From assembly GCF_014695725.1 (NCBI RefSeq), contig NZ_JACJOU010000033.1, positions 248,001-312,000 on the forward strand: DNA of 64,000 nucleotides, in the 5' to 3' direction. The DNA comes from Microcoleus sp. FACHB-672 (GTDB lineage: Bacteria; Cyanobacteriota; Cyanobacteriia; Cyanobacteriales; Oscillatoriaceae). The number at the start of each line of letters is the position of its first letter. Positions within the stretch are counted from its first letter, which is position 1. The position numbers were made by a program, and so were the translations under genes. Below the pieces are notes generated by a model. It was not told the DNA's origin. It searched no databases and saw nothing but the letters and a program-made list of their open reading frames with translations. This document shows positions 44,211-58,312 of this stretch, piece after piece.

Positions 44211-45188
44211 ATGAAAATGTCTCCCAGCCAAGCGAATAACTTTAGCAACCCTGCTTTTTTACCCAAAGTTTCCGTCATTGCTCCGATATACAATGGCGAG
44301 GCAGATTTACCAGATTTACTAAATTGTTTACGCTCACAAACTTACCCAGCAGATTTAGTTGAGTATTTGCTCGTAGACAATAATAGTAGCGATCAAACCG
44401 GCACCCTGATTGCAGCCGCCGGCGAGGGTTTCCGCCACCTCAACGAGAATCAAATTCAAAGTTCGTACGCCGCTAGGAATACCGGCATTCGTGCTGCCAT
44501 CGGCGAAATTCTTGCCTTCACTGACGCTGACTGCCGGCCCAACCCTAACTGGTTGTACTTATTAATTCAGCCATTTGTCAACCAAAATGTAGGAATTGTT
44601 GCCGGTGAAATTGAGGCGCTTGCCGGTAAAACTTTGCTGGAAAAATACGCCAGCCGGCACGATACTTTATCCCAGAAGCATACCTTAGCGCATCCTTTTT
44701 GCCCTTACGGTCAAACTGCAAATTTAGCTATTCGTCGGCAAGTTTTAGAAGAAGTCGCTTTATTTCGTCCTTATTTAACGACTGGCGGCGATGCTGATAT
44801 CTGCTGGCGGATTTTGCGGCAAACTCATTGGCAACTAGAATTTGTACCAGAAGCAATTGTAGAACACCGGCATCGTTCAACTTTGCGGCAATTGCAAAGT
44901 CAGTGGCGGCGCTATGGCGAGTCAAACAAGTATTTGCACGAATTACATGGCATTGATTTAATGCGGGAATTAACGGCTAAAGAATCCCTTTATCGAATCA
45001 GCCGGTGGTTGTTAAAAGAATTGCCGGCTGCTAGTGTCAAAGCGATTACTGGAAAAGCCGGCTTGGCAGACTTATTAAGTACACCCCTCGATCTATTTTG
45101 TTTTCAGGCTAGAACAACGGGACAACGAGAAGCAAATTTAGTAGATAAATCACGACAAATTGAACCATTTATCCAGTCGTCAAATTAA
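44211..45188 (+). CDS. GT2-family glycosyltransferase
   Basis: 325 residues with a GT-A fold: VSVIAPIYNGEADLPDLLNCL, YLLVDNNSSDQTG, RNTGIRAAIGEILAFTDADCRPNPNW (DxD region) and TGGDADICWRI. There is no membrane helix. The acceptor is unknown. It overlaps the 3' end of the convergent transporter gene by 4 bases. Confidence 0.9.
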   Translation: MKMSPSQANNFSNPAFLPKVSVIAPIYNGEADLPDLLNCLRSQTYPADLVEYLLVDNNSSDQTGTLIAAAGEGFRHLNENQIQSSYAARNTGIRAAIGEILAFTDADCRPNPNWLYLLIQPFVNQNVGIVAGEIEALAGKTLLEKYASRHDTLSQKHTLAHPFCPYGQTANLAIRRQVLEEVALFRPYLTTGGDADICWRILRQTHWQLEFVPEAIVEHRHRSTLRQLQSQWRRYGESNKYLHELHGIDLMRELTAKESLYRISRWLLKELPAASVKAITGKAGLADLLSTPLDLFCFQARTTGQREANLVDKSRQIEPFIQSSN

Positions 45189-47329
45189 GGCGTTAAAAAG
45201 TTAATATGCTCGCCTGGAAGTTTTCGCAGATCCTCCACAGAACCTTGCAATTTTAACTGACCATTTTCTATAAATACAATCCACTCAGCACGCTCAATAA
45301 CTCTAGGACGGTGACTAATTGTAATGGTTGTTTTATCTTGCCGATAGGACAGCAGCCGGTCTAGAACTTCAGCCTCACTCACCGGATCTAAACCGGCTGT
45401 GGATTCATCTAAAATTAATACCGGCGGATCGTTAACAATTGCTCTAGCAATGGCTAGCCGCTGCCGCTGTCCTCCAGAGATGTTTGCGCCAAATTCACCC
45501 AAAACGGTTTGATATTTATCGGGTAATTTACTAATAAATTCATCAGCTTCAGCAATTTGACAAGCGGTAACAATTTGCTCAAATGTCACGTAAGGATTGC
45601 CCAAACGAAAATTTTCAATAATTGACCGACTCCAAAAGTGAGCCTCTTGCGGAACTAGGATAACCTGTTGGCGCAGGCAATCCAAAGAAAGGTCTTGCAT
45701 ATTATAAATGCCAAAGCGAATATTCCCAGATTGCGGGGAGTGCAACCCCGCAATTAGCTTAGCCAAGGTACTTTTGCCACAGCCAGATTTACCGATTAAG
45801 GCAGTTGCTTTACCGCCAGGAATTTTGAGTGTGAAATCTTTGAGAAGGTCAACCCTTCCCGCATGATAAAAGTTGAGATTCGTACAAGTAATGTCAGCAT
45901 TGCCCGGAATTCTCGCAACCGGCTTTTGAGAATCGTTCTGGCTTTCAGGAGTCGAGTCAATCACTTCTGTTAGGCGTTGTGTAGCCGTTTGAGCCATCGT
46001 AAATTCATCTACGAATCCAACGATTGTGCCGATGAATCCGATAAAGTTAGCGTTCATGCTGTTAAATGCCAAGAGCTGACCGATAGTTAATTCTTGGCTA
46101 ATTACTAAACTGCTACCCAGCCAAAGCAAGGCAACGCTACCAATACTGGAAACTAACCCAGAAAAGGTATTGTTGATAATACCGATTTGAATCGTGCGGA
46201 AGGTGACGTTAGCGAGGCGACCAAACCGGCTCTGAAACTCTTCCCAAAATTGGGGGGCTGCCGTGGTGGTTTTTAGTGTGAGTGCGCCCTTAAAGGTTTC
46301 GACTAAAACGCCCTGATTTTCTGCTTCTAAAACTAATAAAGTTCGAGTCTTCTGCTGAAGTGTCGGCAGAAAGATGACTGTCGAGAAGGTCATTAAAAGT
46401 GCAAATAAAAAAGCAGCTATGGTGAGTTTCCAACTGTAGAACAGCATAAAGCTCAGAGAAATAGCAGCAATGAATAATTGGCTGGGAAGGCGGATAACAA
46501 CTTGGGAAACTAACTGATTAATTTCTTGAATATCTCGGAGCCGGCTGACAATTTCACCGCTGCGACGTGCTTCATAATAGCTTAGAGGTAAACGCAGAAT
46601 GACTCTGCCAAATTCCAGCACTAGCCCTAACTGTAACCGTTGAGCAAAGTGGGCGATCAGGTTAGACTGTACGAGCTGGAGGCTGCTGCTGAGAAAGTTC
46701 ATAATAATAACAGCAATTACCACACCCGTGAGCAACTGCGTATCCCCACGAACCAGCACATCATCCGTGAGAATTTGCAGCAAAAATGGGGAAGTTAAAG
46801 ACAGCATCCCCAAAACAAGATTAATTAGAAATGCCTCCCCCAGAATGCCTCGATAAGCCCACACCGGCTTAAAGAAACGCCCAAAACCGCTAACCTTATC
46901 ATCAGACTGGGCGGAAAAGCGGACGGGATCGGGTTCGAGTAAAAGCATCAAGCCATTAGCCCAGCCCTCTTTTAACTCTTCCTTAGACAGGTAGCGGATG
47001 CCAACAGCCGGGTCTGCGATCGCATACTTATTACCGCGCTGTCCGTGCAAAACCACCCAGTGATAGCCCATCCAGTGAATGATCGCCGGCAAGGGGGCTT
47101 CTTTCATTTTGTCGAGAATTTCAGGTGAAGCCCTGACGCCTCTGGCATTGAACCCGAGTGCCTCTGAACCCCGCTTCAGCCCAAGTAAGGTCGTTCCCAA
47201 CTGGCCGGTGCCGACCGCTTCCCGAATGCGGGTGAGGGTAAACGTGCGCCCGTGCTGTTTGGCGATGGTGGCAAGACAAGCAGCGCCGCAGTCTTCTTCA
47301 CTGTGCTGTAAAACAACCTGGTATTTCAT
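45185..47329 (-). CDS. mdnE: C39-peptidase ABC transporter of the microviridin cluster (PCAT)
   Basis: 714 residues. An N-terminal C39 peptidase domain has Cys14 (QHSEEDCGAACLA), His90 (GYHWVVLHG) and Asp106 (ADPAVG). Six membrane helices follow at about 155-430. The ATPase domain has Walker A GKSGCGKST, signature NISGGQRQRLAIARA and Walker B ILDESTAGLD. Peptidase-containing transporters cut a double-Gly leader during export. The precursor gene encoded divergently has GG at residues 35-36. The symbol is by position; the microviridin transporters I recall do not all carry a C39 domain. Confidence 0.85.
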   Translation of the reverse strand: MKYQVVLQHSEEDCGAACLATIAKQHGRTFTLTRIREAVGTGQLGTTLLGLKRGSEALGFNARGVRASPEILDKMKEAPLPAIIHWMGYHWVVLHGQRGNKYAIADPAVGIRYLSKEELKEGWANGLMLLLEPDPVRFSAQSDDKVSGFGRFFKPVWAYRGILGEAFLINLVLGMLSLTSPFLLQILTDDVLVRGDTQLLTGVVIAVIIMNFLSSSLQLVQSNLIAHFAQRLQLGLVLEFGRVILRLPLSYYEARRSGEIVSRLRDIQEINQLVSQVVIRLPSQLFIAAISLSFMLFYSWKLTIAAFLFALLMTFSTVIFLPTLQQKTRTLLVLEAENQGVLVETFKGALTLKTTTAAPQFWEEFQSRFGRLANVTFRTIQIGIINNTFSGLVSSIGSVALLWLGSSLVISQELTIGQLLAFNSMNANFIGFIGTIVGFVDEFTMAQTATQRLTEVIDSTPESQNDSQKPVARIPGNADITCTNLNFYHAGRVDLLKDFTLKIPGGKATALIGKSGCGKSTLAKLIAGLHSPQSGNIRFGIYNMQDLSLDCLRQQVILVPQEAHFWSRSIIENFRLGNPYVTFEQIVTACQIAEADEFISKLPDKYQTVLGEFGANISGGQRQRLAIARAIVNDPPVLILDESTAGLDPVSEAEVLDRLLSYRQDKTTITISHRPRVIERAEWIVFIENGQLKLQGSVEDLRKLPGEHINFLTP

Positions 47330-48075: not shown

Positions 48076-48366
48076 ATGTCTGAAATGCCAAACGAAAAAG
48101 CAGTTCCCTTTTTCGCCCGCTTCCTAGAAAGCCAGAACATTGAAGAACTTTCTGAAGAGGATATGGAAGCCGCAGCCGGCGGCAAAGGCAGGAAAAAATC
48201 AAAATGTGGCGGCGGCGGAATCGCGGTGACCGAAAAATATCCATCAGATCAAGAAGAGGGTGGAGAGGTGACGACGATGAAGTACCCATCTGATGCCGAA
48301 GATGAAGGGGAAGTCATGGTGACAATGAAGTACCCGTCTGATGCCGAGGACTCCGGCAGCCTGTAA
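48076..48366 (+). CDS. mdnA: three-core microviridin precursor peptide
   Basis: 96 residues. The leader carries the ATP-grasp recognition motif PFFARFLE at 11-18 and a GG at 35-36. A basic Gly-rich linker (residues 37-50) leads to three cores: T52-x-K54-Y-P-S57-D58-Q-E60-E61, T67-x-K69-Y-P-S72-D73-A-E75-D76, and T83-x-K85-Y-P-S88-D89-A-E91-D92. In microviridins, Thr-Asp and Ser-Glu esters and a Lys-Glu amide make three rings, giving serine-protease inhibitors. Spacing here fits all three rings in core 1; in cores 2 and 3 the amide Glu is replaced by Asp. No Trp follows the cores. Confidence 0.93.
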   Translation: MSEMPNEKAVPFFARFLESQNIEELSEEDMEAAAGGKGRKKSKCGGGGIAVTEKYPSDQEEGGEVTTMKYPSDAEDEGEVMVTMKYPSDAEDSGSL

Positions 48367-48544: not shown

Positions 48545-49522
48545 ATGAGTTTGTCTCGCAATATTGTTTTATTGCTCACCCACAGTGGAGATTTCTTCAC
48601 GATTGATCGCGTTGCCGAAGCCATCGCCCAGCGCGGGGCACAACCTTTTCGTCTCGACACCGATCAATTCCCAATGGATCTGCAACTTTCAGCTCAAATT
48701 AGTAGCGAAGGACTGCATCACCGGCTTCACTATCAAGACAAATCGATTAGCACAGAGCAAGTGCGATCAGTTTGGATGCGCCGGCTATGGGAACCAAAGC
48801 TGAGTCCAGAATTATCCCCACAGTACCAGTACGCTTGTCGTCGAGAGTCACGTGCCGCCCTTCTCGGCTTCTTAGACAGCCTTAGCGAGGTGCGCTGGGT
48901 GGATGATTTGCGACGTATTTCCGCCGCAGAGAACAAGTTGCGCCAGCTTAGAATTGCTAGAAATGCCGGTTTGCACATTCCCCGAACTCTCGTTACCAAT
49001 GATCCTCAAGAAGCACGAGACTTTTTTCAACAACTGAAGGGAAAAATGGTGGCAAAACTTTTGACACCCCTTTCAGCCAGTATGGAAGGCTCCGCTTTTT
49101 TCCTGTATACCAGCGAAGTTAAAGAAGCGGATCTTGCCGATGCTGAATCACTCCGCTACAGCCCAATGGTTTTTCAAGAGCAAATTCCAAAATTGAGGGA
49201 ATTGCGGGTGATATTTGTGGCGGGAAAATTGTTTGCTGGGGCACTGGATGCCTCTCGTTATTCCGCAACGACAATGGATTGGCGGAGTGCTAAACCAGGC
49301 GAGTGTGTGTGGGAGCCGGCAGAAATTCCAATTCAAATTGCCGATTGTCTTAATACTTTTATGGCAGAGTTTGGGCTACTTTTTGGAGCCTTCGACTTTA
49401 TCCAAACCCCAGACAATGAATATATTTTTCTTGAAGTTAACGCGACAGGGGAATGGGGAATGTTAGAGCGAGATTTAAATCTGCCAATTTCTGAGGCAAT
49501 TGCAGATACTCTATTAGGTTAA
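48545..49522 (+). CDS. mdnB: microviridin ATP-grasp ligase, MvdC/MdnB-like
   Basis: 325 residues from ATG 48545; an in-frame start 16 codons earlier adds a hydrophobic tail unlike relatives. The N-terminus NIVLLLTHSGDFFTIDRVAEA and RLDTDQFP, ENKLRQLRIA, SPMVFQEQIPKLRELRVIFV and the metal-binding FLEVNATGEWGMLERDLNLPISEAIAD define the MvdC/MvdD family. By gene order and N-terminal type it matches the ligase that forms the Lys-Glu amide; the amide/ester split between the two ligases is inferred. Confidence 0.88.
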   Translation: MSLSRNIVLLLTHSGDFFTIDRVAEAIAQRGAQPFRLDTDQFPMDLQLSAQISSEGLHHRLHYQDKSISTEQVRSVWMRRLWEPKLSPELSPQYQYACRRESRAALLGFLDSLSEVRWVDDLRRISAAENKLRQLRIARNAGLHIPRTLVTNDPQEARDFFQQLKGKMVAKLLTPLSASMEGSAFFLYTSEVKEADLADAESLRYSPMVFQEQIPKLRELRVIFVAGKLFAGALDASRYSATTMDWRSAKPGECVWEPAEIPIQIADCLNTFMAEFGLLFGAFDFIQTPDNEYIFLEVNATGEWGMLERDLNLPISEAIADTLLG

Positions 49523-49738: not shown

Positions 49739-50716
49739 ATGACAGTTCTAATTATTACCCACAGCCAGGACAACCAAAGCATCCCTATGGTGATCGACGC
49801 CGTAGAGAAACAAGGCGGCAAAGCGTTTCGTTTTAACACAGACCAATTTCCCACAGAGATTCAGCTAGATATCTACTACAGCAACGGAAAAGAGCGACTA
49901 ATCGTTGCTTCTGAACAAGATAAACTGGATCTTCATGAAGTATCCGCAGTCTGGTATCGCCGGCTCAGAATAGGCGGGCGAATTCCTAGCACAATGGATG
50001 CTCAACTCAGACAAGCCTCAATTCAGGAATCGCGGGCGACTGTTCAAGGAATGATCGCTAGCCTTAAAGCTTTTCACCTCGATCCAGTGCCCCATCTCCG
50101 GCGGGCGGAAAACAAACAATTGCAGTTGCAAGTTGCGCGAGAATTGGGGATTGATACGCCACGCACTTTAATGACAAATAATCCCCAAGCCGTGCGAGAA
50201 TTTGCCGGCGAGTGCGAGGGAAATTTAATCACCAAAATGCATTCTTCTTTTGCTATTTATGAAGAGGGTATAGAAAAAGTTGTTTTCACCAATCCTTTAA
50301 CTGCTGAAGATCTAGAAAATCTCGATGGGTTGCGCTTTTGTCCGATGACGTTTCAGGAACACATTCCCAAAGCGTTAGAATTACGCACAATTGTTGTTGG
50401 GAAGCAGTTGTTTACTGCCTCAATAGATTCTCAAAGTTCTGAGAAGGCGCGTCACGATTGGCGCAGGCAAGGCTTAGCCCTGATAGATGATTGGAAACCC
50501 TATGATTTACCCCAAGAACTCGGAGAAAGGCTGCTACAGTTGATGAGCTACTTTGGGTTAAACTACGGAGCGCTTGACCTGATTTTAACGCCAGACGGTC
50601 GCCATATTTTCTTGGAAGTTAACCCGGTTGGGGAGTTTTTCTGGCTGGAGTTGTGCCCAGGTTTACCTATTTCCCATGCAATCGCAGATATTTTGCTCAC
50701 TCAGTCTCAAAAATAA
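49739..50716 (+). CDS. mdnC: microviridin ATP-grasp ligase, MvdD/MdnC-like
   Basis: 325 residues. TVLIITHSQDNQSIPMVIDAVEK, RFNTDQFPTEIQLDIYYS, VWYRRLR, ENKQLQLQVARELGIDTPRTL, CPMTFQEHIPKALELRTIVV and FLEVNPVGEFFWLELCPGLPISHAI mark the second member of the pair. This type makes the two ester rings in microviridins (by analogy). It follows the first ligase by 216 bases and precedes the adaptor gene by 17. Confidence 0.88.
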   Translation: MTVLIITHSQDNQSIPMVIDAVEKQGGKAFRFNTDQFPTEIQLDIYYSNGKERLIVASEQDKLDLHEVSAVWYRRLRIGGRIPSTMDAQLRQASIQESRATVQGMIASLKAFHLDPVPHLRRAENKQLQLQVARELGIDTPRTLMTNNPQAVREFAGECEGNLITKMHSSFAIYEEGIEKVVFTNPLTAEDLENLDGLRFCPMTFQEHIPKALELRTIVVGKQLFTASIDSQSSEKARHDWRRQGLALIDDWKPYDLPQELGERLLQLMSYFGLNYGALDLILTPDGRHIFLEVNPVGEFFWLELCPGLPISHAIADILLTQSQK

Positions 50717-50733: not shown

Positions 50734-52221
50734 ATGTTGAGTGAATCAGATTCAGAATTTTTTCAACCACTTAACAGCAACGAATTTCTCCCCCCTATCG
50801 GCTTGTGGACAAGGCTGGGCGGACTATTTTTGGTTGCAACATTTGGCATCGGCGTCATCGTTGCTGCCGTCACAAAATACAACGTGACTGTTAAAGCTGC
50901 CGCGACAGTTCGCCCCACCGGCGATCTGCGACTCATTCAAGCGGCTGCTCAAGGCAGCATTAACCGAATTGAAATCAAAGAAAATCAAGCAGTCAAACAG
51001 GGAGACGCACTCGCTTATATTGACGACTCCCAACTGCAAACGAAAAAGAGCCAATTGCAAGGAAATATTCAAAATAGCCAACTCCAACTAACTCAACTCG
51101 ACGCTCAAATTAGTGCCTTAGCGGGTCAAGTTGCGGCTGAAAGTGACCGCACAAAGCGGGCTGTAGCCTCAGCACAAGCGGATCTGGATCGGAGTCAACG
51201 GGACTATCAAGACCGGCAGGTGACTTCTGTGGCAGGAGTTACAGAAGCCGAAGCGAATATTAGAGCTGCCGAAAAAGAATTGCAAAAGGCACAGGCAGAA
51301 TTACAAGCCGGTGAGGCAAATTTAAGATCGATTCAAGCAACTTTAAAAGTAGCAGAGTCGAAACGTGATCGATATCAGCCTTTAGTTGAAAGCGGGGGAC
51401 TTTCTCAAGATCAATTTGAGGAAGCAAAACTTGCGGTTGAGCAGCAAGAAGAAGCGGTTGAGCAGCAAAAAGCTTTAATTATCAGCCAAAGGCAAACAAT
51501 AGAGCAGCAAAAACAAGCGATAGAGGCGGCAAAAGCTCGATTGCAAGGGGCCTCAGCCGGCCTTGATCCGAGTCAGGCAATTGTAGCAATGGCGCGGGAG
51601 AAAATTGACCAAGAAAAAGCTGCCGGTGCTGTCACCTTAGCTAGATTAAATCAAGAACGAGAGCAGTTGCTTCAGCGAAAAGTGGAAATCCAAAGCCAAC
51701 TCAACCGCGATCAGCAAGAACTGCAACAAATTGAAACTGAACTGAAAAACACGATCATTCGCTCACCCGTTTCTGGTACTATCCAGGTGCTTAATCTCCG
51801 CAACACGTCTCAACTGGTGCGTCCAGGGGATCTGATTGCTGAAGTTTCTCCTAGTGAAGCGCCTTTGGTGGTGAAAGCGCTGGTGTCATCGGAGGATATC
51901 AGCCGCGTGAAAGCCGGCCAATCTGTGCAAATGCGGGTTTCTGCCTGTCCTTATCCGGATTACGGTATTCTTAAAGGCAAGGTGACGGGAGTTTCACCGG
52001 ATGCAATGAAGCCTGACGCCAATTCACAATCTCCCCAAACTCCCACCTTAAACGCTGCTTTCTTTGAAGTGACGGTTCAGCCGGAAACCCTTGCTTTGGT
52101 TCAGGGCGATCGCAAATGTCCGATTCAAGCTGGGATGCAAGGCACAGCTGATATTATTTCTAAACAAGAGACGGTTCTTACGTTTATTCTCAGAAAGGCA
52201 AGGCTACTGACAGATTTGTGA
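50734..52221 (+). CDS. HlyD-type membrane fusion protein of the export system
   Basis: 495 residues from ATG 50734 (an upstream in-frame ATG overlaps the ligase gene). It has a short N-terminal cytoplasmic part, a membrane helix at about 25-45 (GGLFLVATFGIGVIVAAV), a lipoyl half-motif (IKENQAVKQGDALAYIDD), a long coiled coil at about 90-340, then the second half with TIIRSPVSGTIQVLNL and a beta-barrel tail. It should bridge the C39 ABC transporter to the outer membrane. Such adaptors are not part of the classical mdn set. Confidence 0.88.
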   Translation: MLSESDSEFFQPLNSNEFLPPIGLWTRLGGLFLVATFGIGVIVAAVTKYNVTVKAAATVRPTGDLRLIQAAAQGSINRIEIKENQAVKQGDALAYIDDSQLQTKKSQLQGNIQNSQLQLTQLDAQISALAGQVAAESDRTKRAVASAQADLDRSQRDYQDRQVTSVAGVTEAEANIRAAEKELQKAQAELQAGEANLRSIQATLKVAESKRDRYQPLVESGGLSQDQFEEAKLAVEQQEEAVEQQKALIISQRQTIEQQKQAIEAAKARLQGASAGLDPSQAIVAMAREKIDQEKAAGAVTLARLNQEREQLLQRKVEIQSQLNRDQQELQQIETELKNTIIRSPVSGTIQVLNLRNTSQLVRPGDLIAEVSPSEAPLVVKALVSSEDISRVKAGQSVQMRVSACPYPDYGILKGKVTGVSPDAMKPDANSQSPQTPTLNAAFFEVTVQPETLALVQGDRKCPIQAGMQGTADIISKQETVLTFILRKARLLTDL

Positions 52222-56017: not shown

Positions 56018-56060
56018 ATGGCGGGTCGCGCCGGCATCGGCAACAACCCGCCATTTAAGC
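56012..56060. terminator. bidirectional terminator hairpin, RTX array copy 1
   Basis: GCTTAAATGGCGGGT (56012-56026) pairs perfectly with ACCCGCCATTTAAGC (56046-56060). The stem spans the maf stop codon on one side and touches the RTX stop on the other, so it can serve both converging genes. Confidence 0.75.
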
Positions 56061-58312
56061 TAGCTAAACAAGAACTGCGCTGTGTTCTCAGATGCGACAT
56101 TCTCACCCATATTGCCGGCATTGAAACCCGTGCTTCCCACCAAAGTCAGCAGCAACTGTCCACTGCCAAAGCCGCTATTGCCAGAAATACCATCTGCTAA
56201 GCGCAATTGTGTGCCGCTGCCACTCTTGACCACATCAATCGCAGCAATGTCGGTAAATGCGAGCGCATCACCCCCAACACCCCGGACAAATTGATTAACC
56301 GTATCACTTCCATCCCCGGCAGCATAAACAACCGTGTCAGTGACGTGATCGCTACCCAGGGTAAGCGCATCGTTGCCAGTTCCCCCAATCAACCAGTCAC
56401 TACCATTGCCCCCAATTAAATTGTCGTTGCCGGCAGCCCCAATGAGAGTATCGTTGCCATCACGACCATTGAGAACGTTGCTTGCTTGATTGCCGGTGAT
56501 CTTATTGCCGAGGGCGTTGCCGGTGCCGTTAACTGTGGCTGTGCCCGTTAGGTTAAGGTTTTCTACGTTAGTTCCCAAGGTGAAGCTGACGCTAGAATCG
56601 ACGCTATCATTGCCGGCAGCCAAGTTTTCTTTGATAATTTCGTTAGTATTCTCAACGATGTAGAGATCGTCTCCTAAACCGCCACTGAGGCTGTCGAGTC
56701 CAGGGCCGCCAATGAGTGTGTCGTTACTATCTCCTGCATTGATGCTGTCATTGCCGGCTCCTCCGAGGACAGTGTCATTGCCATAGAGGCCGCCGCTATA
56801 AAGCAAGTCATTGCCCTCTCCAGCGTCAAGGAAGTTACCGCCATTGCTCCGGAGGGTATCATCGCCGGCTCCTCCATAAAGGGTGCTTTCGTATCCCGCT
56901 GCGACCAGCGAGTCATTGCCATTGTCGCCCACTAGGTAGTCATTATTGAAACCTCCGAGGATCGTGTCATTGCCTTCCTCACCGAAGCCGGCAATACTAC
57001 CGTAGCCATACTGACTTTCGAGCCAGTCATTGCCATTGCCGCCACCAAGGAAGCCACCACCAATGGTTATAAGCAGCCGATCATCACCGTCTTCGCCATA
57101 CATATCATGAGAACCTTCTCCGCCAGAGAGGGTGTCGTTGCCCTCTCCGCCATAAATGGTGCCACTGCCATCCGCGTCTGCCAGGATGTCATTGCCGACT
57201 CCGCCATTAAGGTCTTCGTAGGAGTCTCCCACCCCACCAATTAGGGTGTCGTTGCCAATGCCGCCATCAAAGTAGTTGTTGCCGTCTGAGGCGTATAGCG
57301 AGTCATTCCCTTCCCCGCCAATAACAGTGGCGTCACCAAAGCCATCGCCGGCAAATACAGTGTCATTACCGGCTCCGGCATCAATAAAGTCATTGTCTTC
57401 CCCGCCATCAATGAAGTCATTGCCTTGCCCGCCATCTATGAAGTCATCGGCTCGCCCGCCATCAAGAAAGTCATTGCCTTCCTCACCGAAAAGCGTGTCA
57501 CTGCCAGGCGTATCCTCCGAGTAGTAATTACCCATGATTGAGTCGTTGCCTTCCCCACCTAGGAGTGAGTCATCGCCACTTCCTCCTTTAACAGTGTCAT
57601 GGCCGGCTCCACCCGTTGCGGTAATCGAATCGAATCCAGATCCTTGGATAAAGTCATTGCCGTTGCCCCCATCGCCTTTACCGCCATAGTAGAGGCTCAT
57701 GACGTCATCGCCATCTTCTCCATAACTAATTCCGCTGCTTTCGTATAACACACAAGTATCGTTGCCGGCTCCGCCATACATTTGCCCACTACCGAGAACC
57801 CCTAGTAACGAGTCATGGCCATCCCCGCCATAAAATAAGTAACTTCCGTAGCTTGACGAGTTGTAGAGGGTATCGTTGCCTTCGCCACCGATTAGGATCC
57901 CCACGGTTGCAGTAAGATAATCATCCCCGGTGCCCCCATCTGCAAAGGTCGTGCCATCATCTCTACCCTCTAGGGTATCGTTCCCCTCCTTTCCGTACAG
58001 GTATACATTTCCATAATCACTGTAGTAATTAACACCTATTAAGTCGTTGCCACCGCCGCCATCTAGGGTGTCATCGCCACCGCCGCCATCTAGGGTGTCA
58101 TCGCCAATGCCGCCATAAATAACGTCATTGCCGGTTCCCCCTATCAGACTGTCATTGTCGGCTCCCCCTTCAATATAGTTATTGCCGCTTGGCCCATAAT
58201 TATTACCGTTTACCCCATCTAGAGTGTCATTGCCGGCATATCCAAATAGAGAATCCTCTTCCTCTCCACCGACAAGGTAATCATTACCCATAGTGCCTGT
58301 GTAAACTGCCAT
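56060..58312 (-). CDS. RTX repeat protein, array copy 1
   Basis: 750 residues, no signal peptide. The start MAVYTGTMGNDYLVGGEEED, then RTX nonapeptides (GGxGNDxLxGG) almost to residue 590, interrupted by variable spacers. The conserved C-terminus of ~160 residues reads ENLNLTGTATVNGTGNALGN, GSDWLIGGTGNDALTLGSDH, TDTVVYAAGDGSDTVNQF and ends in QFLFS. The C-terminal domain is shared by all three paralogues and may carry the type I secretion signal. AAGAGGAAAAG precedes the ATG. It probably binds calcium outside the cell. Confidence 0.88.
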   Translation of the reverse strand: MAVYTGTMGNDYLVGGEEEDSLFGYAGNDTLDGVNGNNYGPSGNNYIEGGADNDSLIGGTGNDVIYGGIGDDTLDGGGGDDTLDGGGGNDLIGVNYYSDYGNVYLYGKEGNDTLEGRDDGTTFADGGTGDDYLTATVGILIGGEGNDTLYNSSSYGSYLFYGGDGHDSLLGVLGSGQMYGGAGNDTCVLYESSGISYGEDGDDVMSLYYGGKGDGGNGNDFIQGSGFDSITATGGAGHDTVKGGSGDDSLLGGEGNDSIMGNYYSEDTPGSDTLFGEEGNDFLDGGRADDFIDGGQGNDFIDGGEDNDFIDAGAGNDTVFAGDGFGDATVIGGEGNDSLYASDGNNYFDGGIGNDTLIGGVGDSYEDLNGGVGNDILADADGSGTIYGGEGNDTLSGGEGSHDMYGEDGDDRLLITIGGGFLGGGNGNDWLESQYGYGSIAGFGEEGNDTILGGFNNDYLVGDNGNDSLVAAGYESTLYGGAGDDTLRSNGGNFLDAGEGNDLLYSGGLYGNDTVLGGAGNDSINAGDSNDTLIGGPGLDSLSGGLGDDLYIVENTNEIIKENLAAGNDSVDSSVSFTLGTNVENLNLTGTATVNGTGNALGNKITGNQASNVLNGRDGNDTLIGAAGNDNLIGGNGSDWLIGGTGNDALTLGSDHVTDTVVYAAGDGSDTVNQFVRGVGGDALAFTDIAAIDVVKSGSGTQLRLADGISGNSGFGSGQLLLTLVGSTGFNAGNMGENVASENTAQFLFS

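Follow-up and report, generated by a model that had tools for sequence, protein, structure and literature searches.

Class I microviridin precursors, such as MdnA of Microcystis and MvdE of Planktothrix, carry a single core, usually with a tryptophan and often with a terminal aromatic residue; they come with an N-acetyltransferase and usually lack a double glycine. Marinostatin has a methionine at position 5 and a TMxYPSD pattern. It is devoid of the amide, and marinostatin clusters are without an MdnB-type ligase (PMC7823629). Class II microviridins (Ahmed et al. 2017) are described in two later papers as having one leader followed by as many as five tandem cores, with double-glycine sites and a nearby C39 exporter (PMC7823629, PMC13039773). 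The ATP-grasp ligases dock onto a leader helix of the PFFARFLE type (PMC7823629, PMC5934393), and the published core consensus is TX1KYPSDX2D/EE/D (PMC5934393). The three cores of AMdnA from Anabaena sp. PCC 7120 have all been lactonised in vitro, with AMdnC acting distributively and forming at most two lactones per core (PMC5934393). The multi-core layout is a recognised and named class, and biochemical work on one of its three-core members dates back to 2018. Among the titles and abstracts found for microviridin together with Microcoleus, apparently mostly of reviews and surveys, none was about such a cluster, and no description of the present sequence was found.

Here, we describe a locus of this kind in a stretch of 64,000 nucleotides from Microcoleus sp. 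FACHB-672, hereafter the window. With a probability of roughly 0.93, we read it as a microviridin cluster of class II (multi-core) in a Microcoleus-type cyanobacterium, which would yield one or more crosslinked serine-protease inhibitors. Its features are the following:

45185..47329, minus strand: peptidase C39-ABC exporter, predicted to remove the leader and export the product (PF03412 8e-37, PF00664, PF00005; 4ry2)
48076..48366, plus strand: microviridin precursor, MdnA/MvdE type, class II, 96 aa (PF12559 3.1e-29, NF033738 4.3e-24)
48106..48129, plus strand: PFFARFLE leader helix, ATP-grasp ligase docking motif (translation, aa 11-18; role according to PMC7823629 and PMC5934393)
48178..48183, plus strand: double glycine after ..EDMEAAAGG, likely C39 cleavage site (sequence; EEL/EDL...GG in relatives)
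48229..48258, plus strand: core 1, TEKYPSDQEE (motif reading, starts at aa 52)
48274..48303, plus strand: core 2, TMKYPSDAED (motif reading, starts at aa 67)
48322..48351, plus strand: core 3, TMKYPSDAED (motif reading, starts at aa 83)
48545..49522, plus strand, 48545 being the likely start: MvdC/MdnB-type ATP-grasp ligase, macrolactam former (TIGR04185; AMdnB 7m4s)
49739..50716, plus strand: MvdD/MdnC-type ATP-grasp ligase, macrolactone former (TIGR04184; MdnC 5ig9)
50734..52221, plus strand: HlyD-type periplasmic adaptor, likely partner of the exporter (PF13437 1.2e-17; position kept in M. vaginatus)

The first-pass annotation had read 48076-48366 as one PFFARFLE leader followed by three TxKYPSD cores, and both the translation (MSEMPNEKAVPFFARFLESQNIEELSEEDMEAAAGGKGRKKSKCGGGGIAVTEKYPSDQEEGGEVTTMKYPSDAEDEGEVMVTMKYPSDAEDSGSL) and the family models agree with it. 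The matches to PF12559 (101.4 bits against a cut-off of 21) and NF033738 (85.1 bits against a cut-off of 26), each of two stretches, lie far above chance and put membership of the microviridin precursor family beyond doubt. The PFFARFL motif by which microviridin precursors are recognised occupies residues 11-17, all three cores conform to the published consensus with every crosslinking residue in place, and the linkers between them are short and acidic. The double glycine of the leader comes after EELSEEDMEAAAGG (AAAGG, aa 32-36), and an EEL/EDL...GG pattern at the end of the leader is common to most of the multi-core relatives in the loci that we fetched. A Shine-Dalgarno-like AAAGGAG precedes the ATG; a promoter and terminator scan gave no match above chance. 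The linker between the leader double glycine and core 1 (48184-48219, KGRKKSKCGGGG) is basic and contains a single cysteine; it is conserved in the genus apart from minor differences (KCRKKSKCNGGG, KGRRRAKCNGGG).

The proposal of a multi-core microviridin precursor is further borne out by a full set of maturation genes, identified by family matches and solved relatives. Both ligases exceed the cut-offs of their NCBIfam equivalog models, the MvdC/MdnB type with 490.7 bits against 425 for TIGR04185 and the MvdD/MdnC type with 525.3 bits against 475 for TIGR04184. The closest solved relative of the former is AMdnB (7m4s, 3.8e-138; 5ig8 was also matched) and that of the latter is MdnC (5ig9, 2.1e-127), and the alignments of the two ligases with MdnC, MdnB and AMdnB are full-length. 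The C39-ABC exporter aligns end to end with 4ry2 and retains the catalytic residues, namely Cys (in DCGAAC), His (in HWVV) and Asp (in ADP). The ligases and the HlyD-type adaptor lie downstream of the precursor on the same strand, and the exporter lies upstream in divergent orientation. Elsewhere in the window, the ORF list holds a large reading frame whose repeats are rich in glycine and aspartate and of the RTX calcium-binding type (56060-58312, minus strand).

Compared with class II as described in the two later papers, the locus shows no class-defining difference: one leader is followed by three tandem cores, within the range of two to five, a double-glycine motif and a cognate C39 peptidase transporter are present, and the missing double glycine between cores 2 and 3 is allowed for by the wording 'separated or not'. 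The closest counterpart is the AMdnA/AMdnB/AMdnC cluster of Anabaena sp. PCC 7120, which likewise combines one PFFARFL-type leader, three TxKxPSD cores and ligases of the MdnB and MdnC types. The layout had already been described (AMdnA, PMC5934393), but the precursor sequence itself is a different one, the two being compared here by description. Class I shares the leader motif, the crosslinking residues and the two ligases, whereas the window precursor has three cores without a tryptophan in the core, and the larger ORFs flanking the cluster, part of which were scanned against a library, showed no evident N-acetyltransferase gene. Cores 2 and 3 resemble marinostatin in their methionine at position 5 and their TMxYPSD pattern, but, unlike marinostatin clusters, the locus has an MdnB-type ligase. 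The locus extends class II by a complete cluster of conserved synteny in a Microcoleus-type cyanobacterium; as an ordinary addition to the well-known three-repeat precursors, it leaves knowledge of the microviridin family unchanged.

Cores 2 and 3 had been noted as almost the same at the DNA level, and a recent internal duplication had been proposed. The first statement holds for the ten-codon core, in which 26/30 nucleotides agree and all four differences are silent, but not for the whole 48-nucleotide repeat, with 77% identity. A recent duplication was rejected as unsupported. Three cores occur in the precursors of all three genus genomes examined, and core 2 of the window agrees better with core 2 of two other Microcoleus species (29/30 and 28/30 nucleotides) than with core 3 of the same precursor gene, which places the duplication before these species separated. 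Within one gene, cores 2 and 3 agree at 26/30 positions in the window, 25/30 in the related locus L006 and 22/30 in L007. Every crosslinking residue is retained in all three cores of the three genus genomes. Position 5 of core 2 varies, with methionine in the window, threonine in L006 and alanine in L007, and these three related species form a small natural set for specificity testing.

In the predicted pathway, with its ring pattern, cleavage points, secretion and target proteases, the PFFARFLE helix would dock both ATP-grasp ligases. The MvdD/MdnC-type ligase would form two esters per core (T4-D10 and S9-E/D13) and the MvdC/MdnB-type ligase one amide per core (K6-E12). Two lactones and one lactam on each of the three cores, which we infer from homology and from the three-core AMdnA precedent, would amount to the loss of up to nine water molecules. 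Cleavage behind the double glycine and export would then fall to the C39-ABC exporter together with the HlyD-type adaptor; removal of the leader at this site is proposed because it fits the class II pattern (PMC7823629, PMC13039773). The exported product is predicted to be a serine-protease inhibitor or a mixture of such inhibitors. That one transcript could give several inhibitors, as initially suggested, is supported by the multi-core precursor and the full maturation gene set and is the most likely reading. Position 5 sets the protease specificity in tested microviridins, and microviridin L with methionine at this residue inhibits subtilisin with an IC50 of 0.09 uM (PMC7823629). Core 1 has glutamate and cores 2 and 3 have methionine at position 5, so two specificities are predicted. 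Cores 2 and 3 would most likely act on subtilisin-type proteases, a P1 argument for which the published microviridin L mutants are the sole basis.

It is possible, if somewhat doubtful, that the cores stay joined, either as a three-headed inhibitor of 60 aa with up to nine crosslinks after one cut behind AAAGG, or, with a second cut at EEGG, as core 1 alone and a two-headed piece of cores 2 and 3. A double glycine follows the leader and also core 1 (EEGG), and the linker between cores 2 and 3 (EDEGEV) has none in the window and in L006, which makes a multi-headed inhibitor a live alternative; both inter-core linkers contain a double glycine only in L007 and in the M. vaginatus locus L028. In addition, no other protease gene was noticed beside the cluster in the ORF list. 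Against joined cores, other cellular proteases may trim the product, and the linker glycine pairs of the relatives may be mere flexible spacers. C39 enzymes also recognise the leader helix upstream of the double glycine, and the inner sites lack such a helix. It is unlikely that the mature inhibitor keeps cores 2 and 3, or all three, joined after export, with the cores jointly acting on a pair of protease molecules or on proteases of two kinds. The predicted monoisotopic masses of the fully crosslinked pieces with a free thiol are 6195.82 for three cores, 2711.34 for the core 1 piece and 3502.49 for cores 2 and 3, and the cluster could serve to decide between separated class II cores and a single multi-headed inhibitor.

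It is highly improbable that a mere subset of the cores is modified in the cell, with the others as decoys or decaying copies: the retained crosslinking residues and the silent core 2/3 differences suggest selection on each core, although AMdnC alone in vitro gave an incomplete major AMdnA product with 1-2-2 lactones (PMC5934393), by which one or more cores of the window may stay partly modified.

The genome of the window closely resembles that of Microcoleus vaginatus WJT46-NPBG5 (L028), in which the block of GT2, C39-ABC exporter, precursor, MvdC, MvdD, HlyD and regulator has the same order, with identities of 94-96% for exporter, ligases and adaptor and 86% for the precursor. No second microviridin precursor above the cut-off was found in the genome of the window; the sole other match, on contig 16, is weak and has three stops. 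Precursors are patchy in the order (13/196 sampled genomes, protein query) and in the phylum (24/386 sampled genomes, Pfam family).

A simple motif count in 45 distinct precursor-like ORFs from the fetched loci gave one core in 19, two in 7, three in 12, four in 4 and five in 3. The remark in the first-pass annotation that most described precursors have a single core fits the isolated products, but multi-core precursors are at least as common in the fetched loci (26/45 with two to five cores), which were picked by similarity to this precursor or its family and are no unbiased census. Two further precursors were noticed. L012 (positions 1363-1824; G090 contig 1, same order) encodes a three-core microviridin-like precursor with a possible GTG start at 1363 and, apparently, a Sec-signal-like N-terminus before PFFARFLE (VKASSIKFSLSTLTLLSLAAVAATPTLA...); an MvdD-like ligase lies just downstream, and the locus ends soon after. 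If this start is right, an export signal and a ligase-docking leader would be on one peptide, which seems unusual. The long precursor of L016 (G043) has a single core at its extreme C-terminus (..VMTMKYPSDQE), after about 60 unrelated residues, and adjoins an MvdD-type ligase; the layout resembles class III, yet the host is a cyanobacterium.
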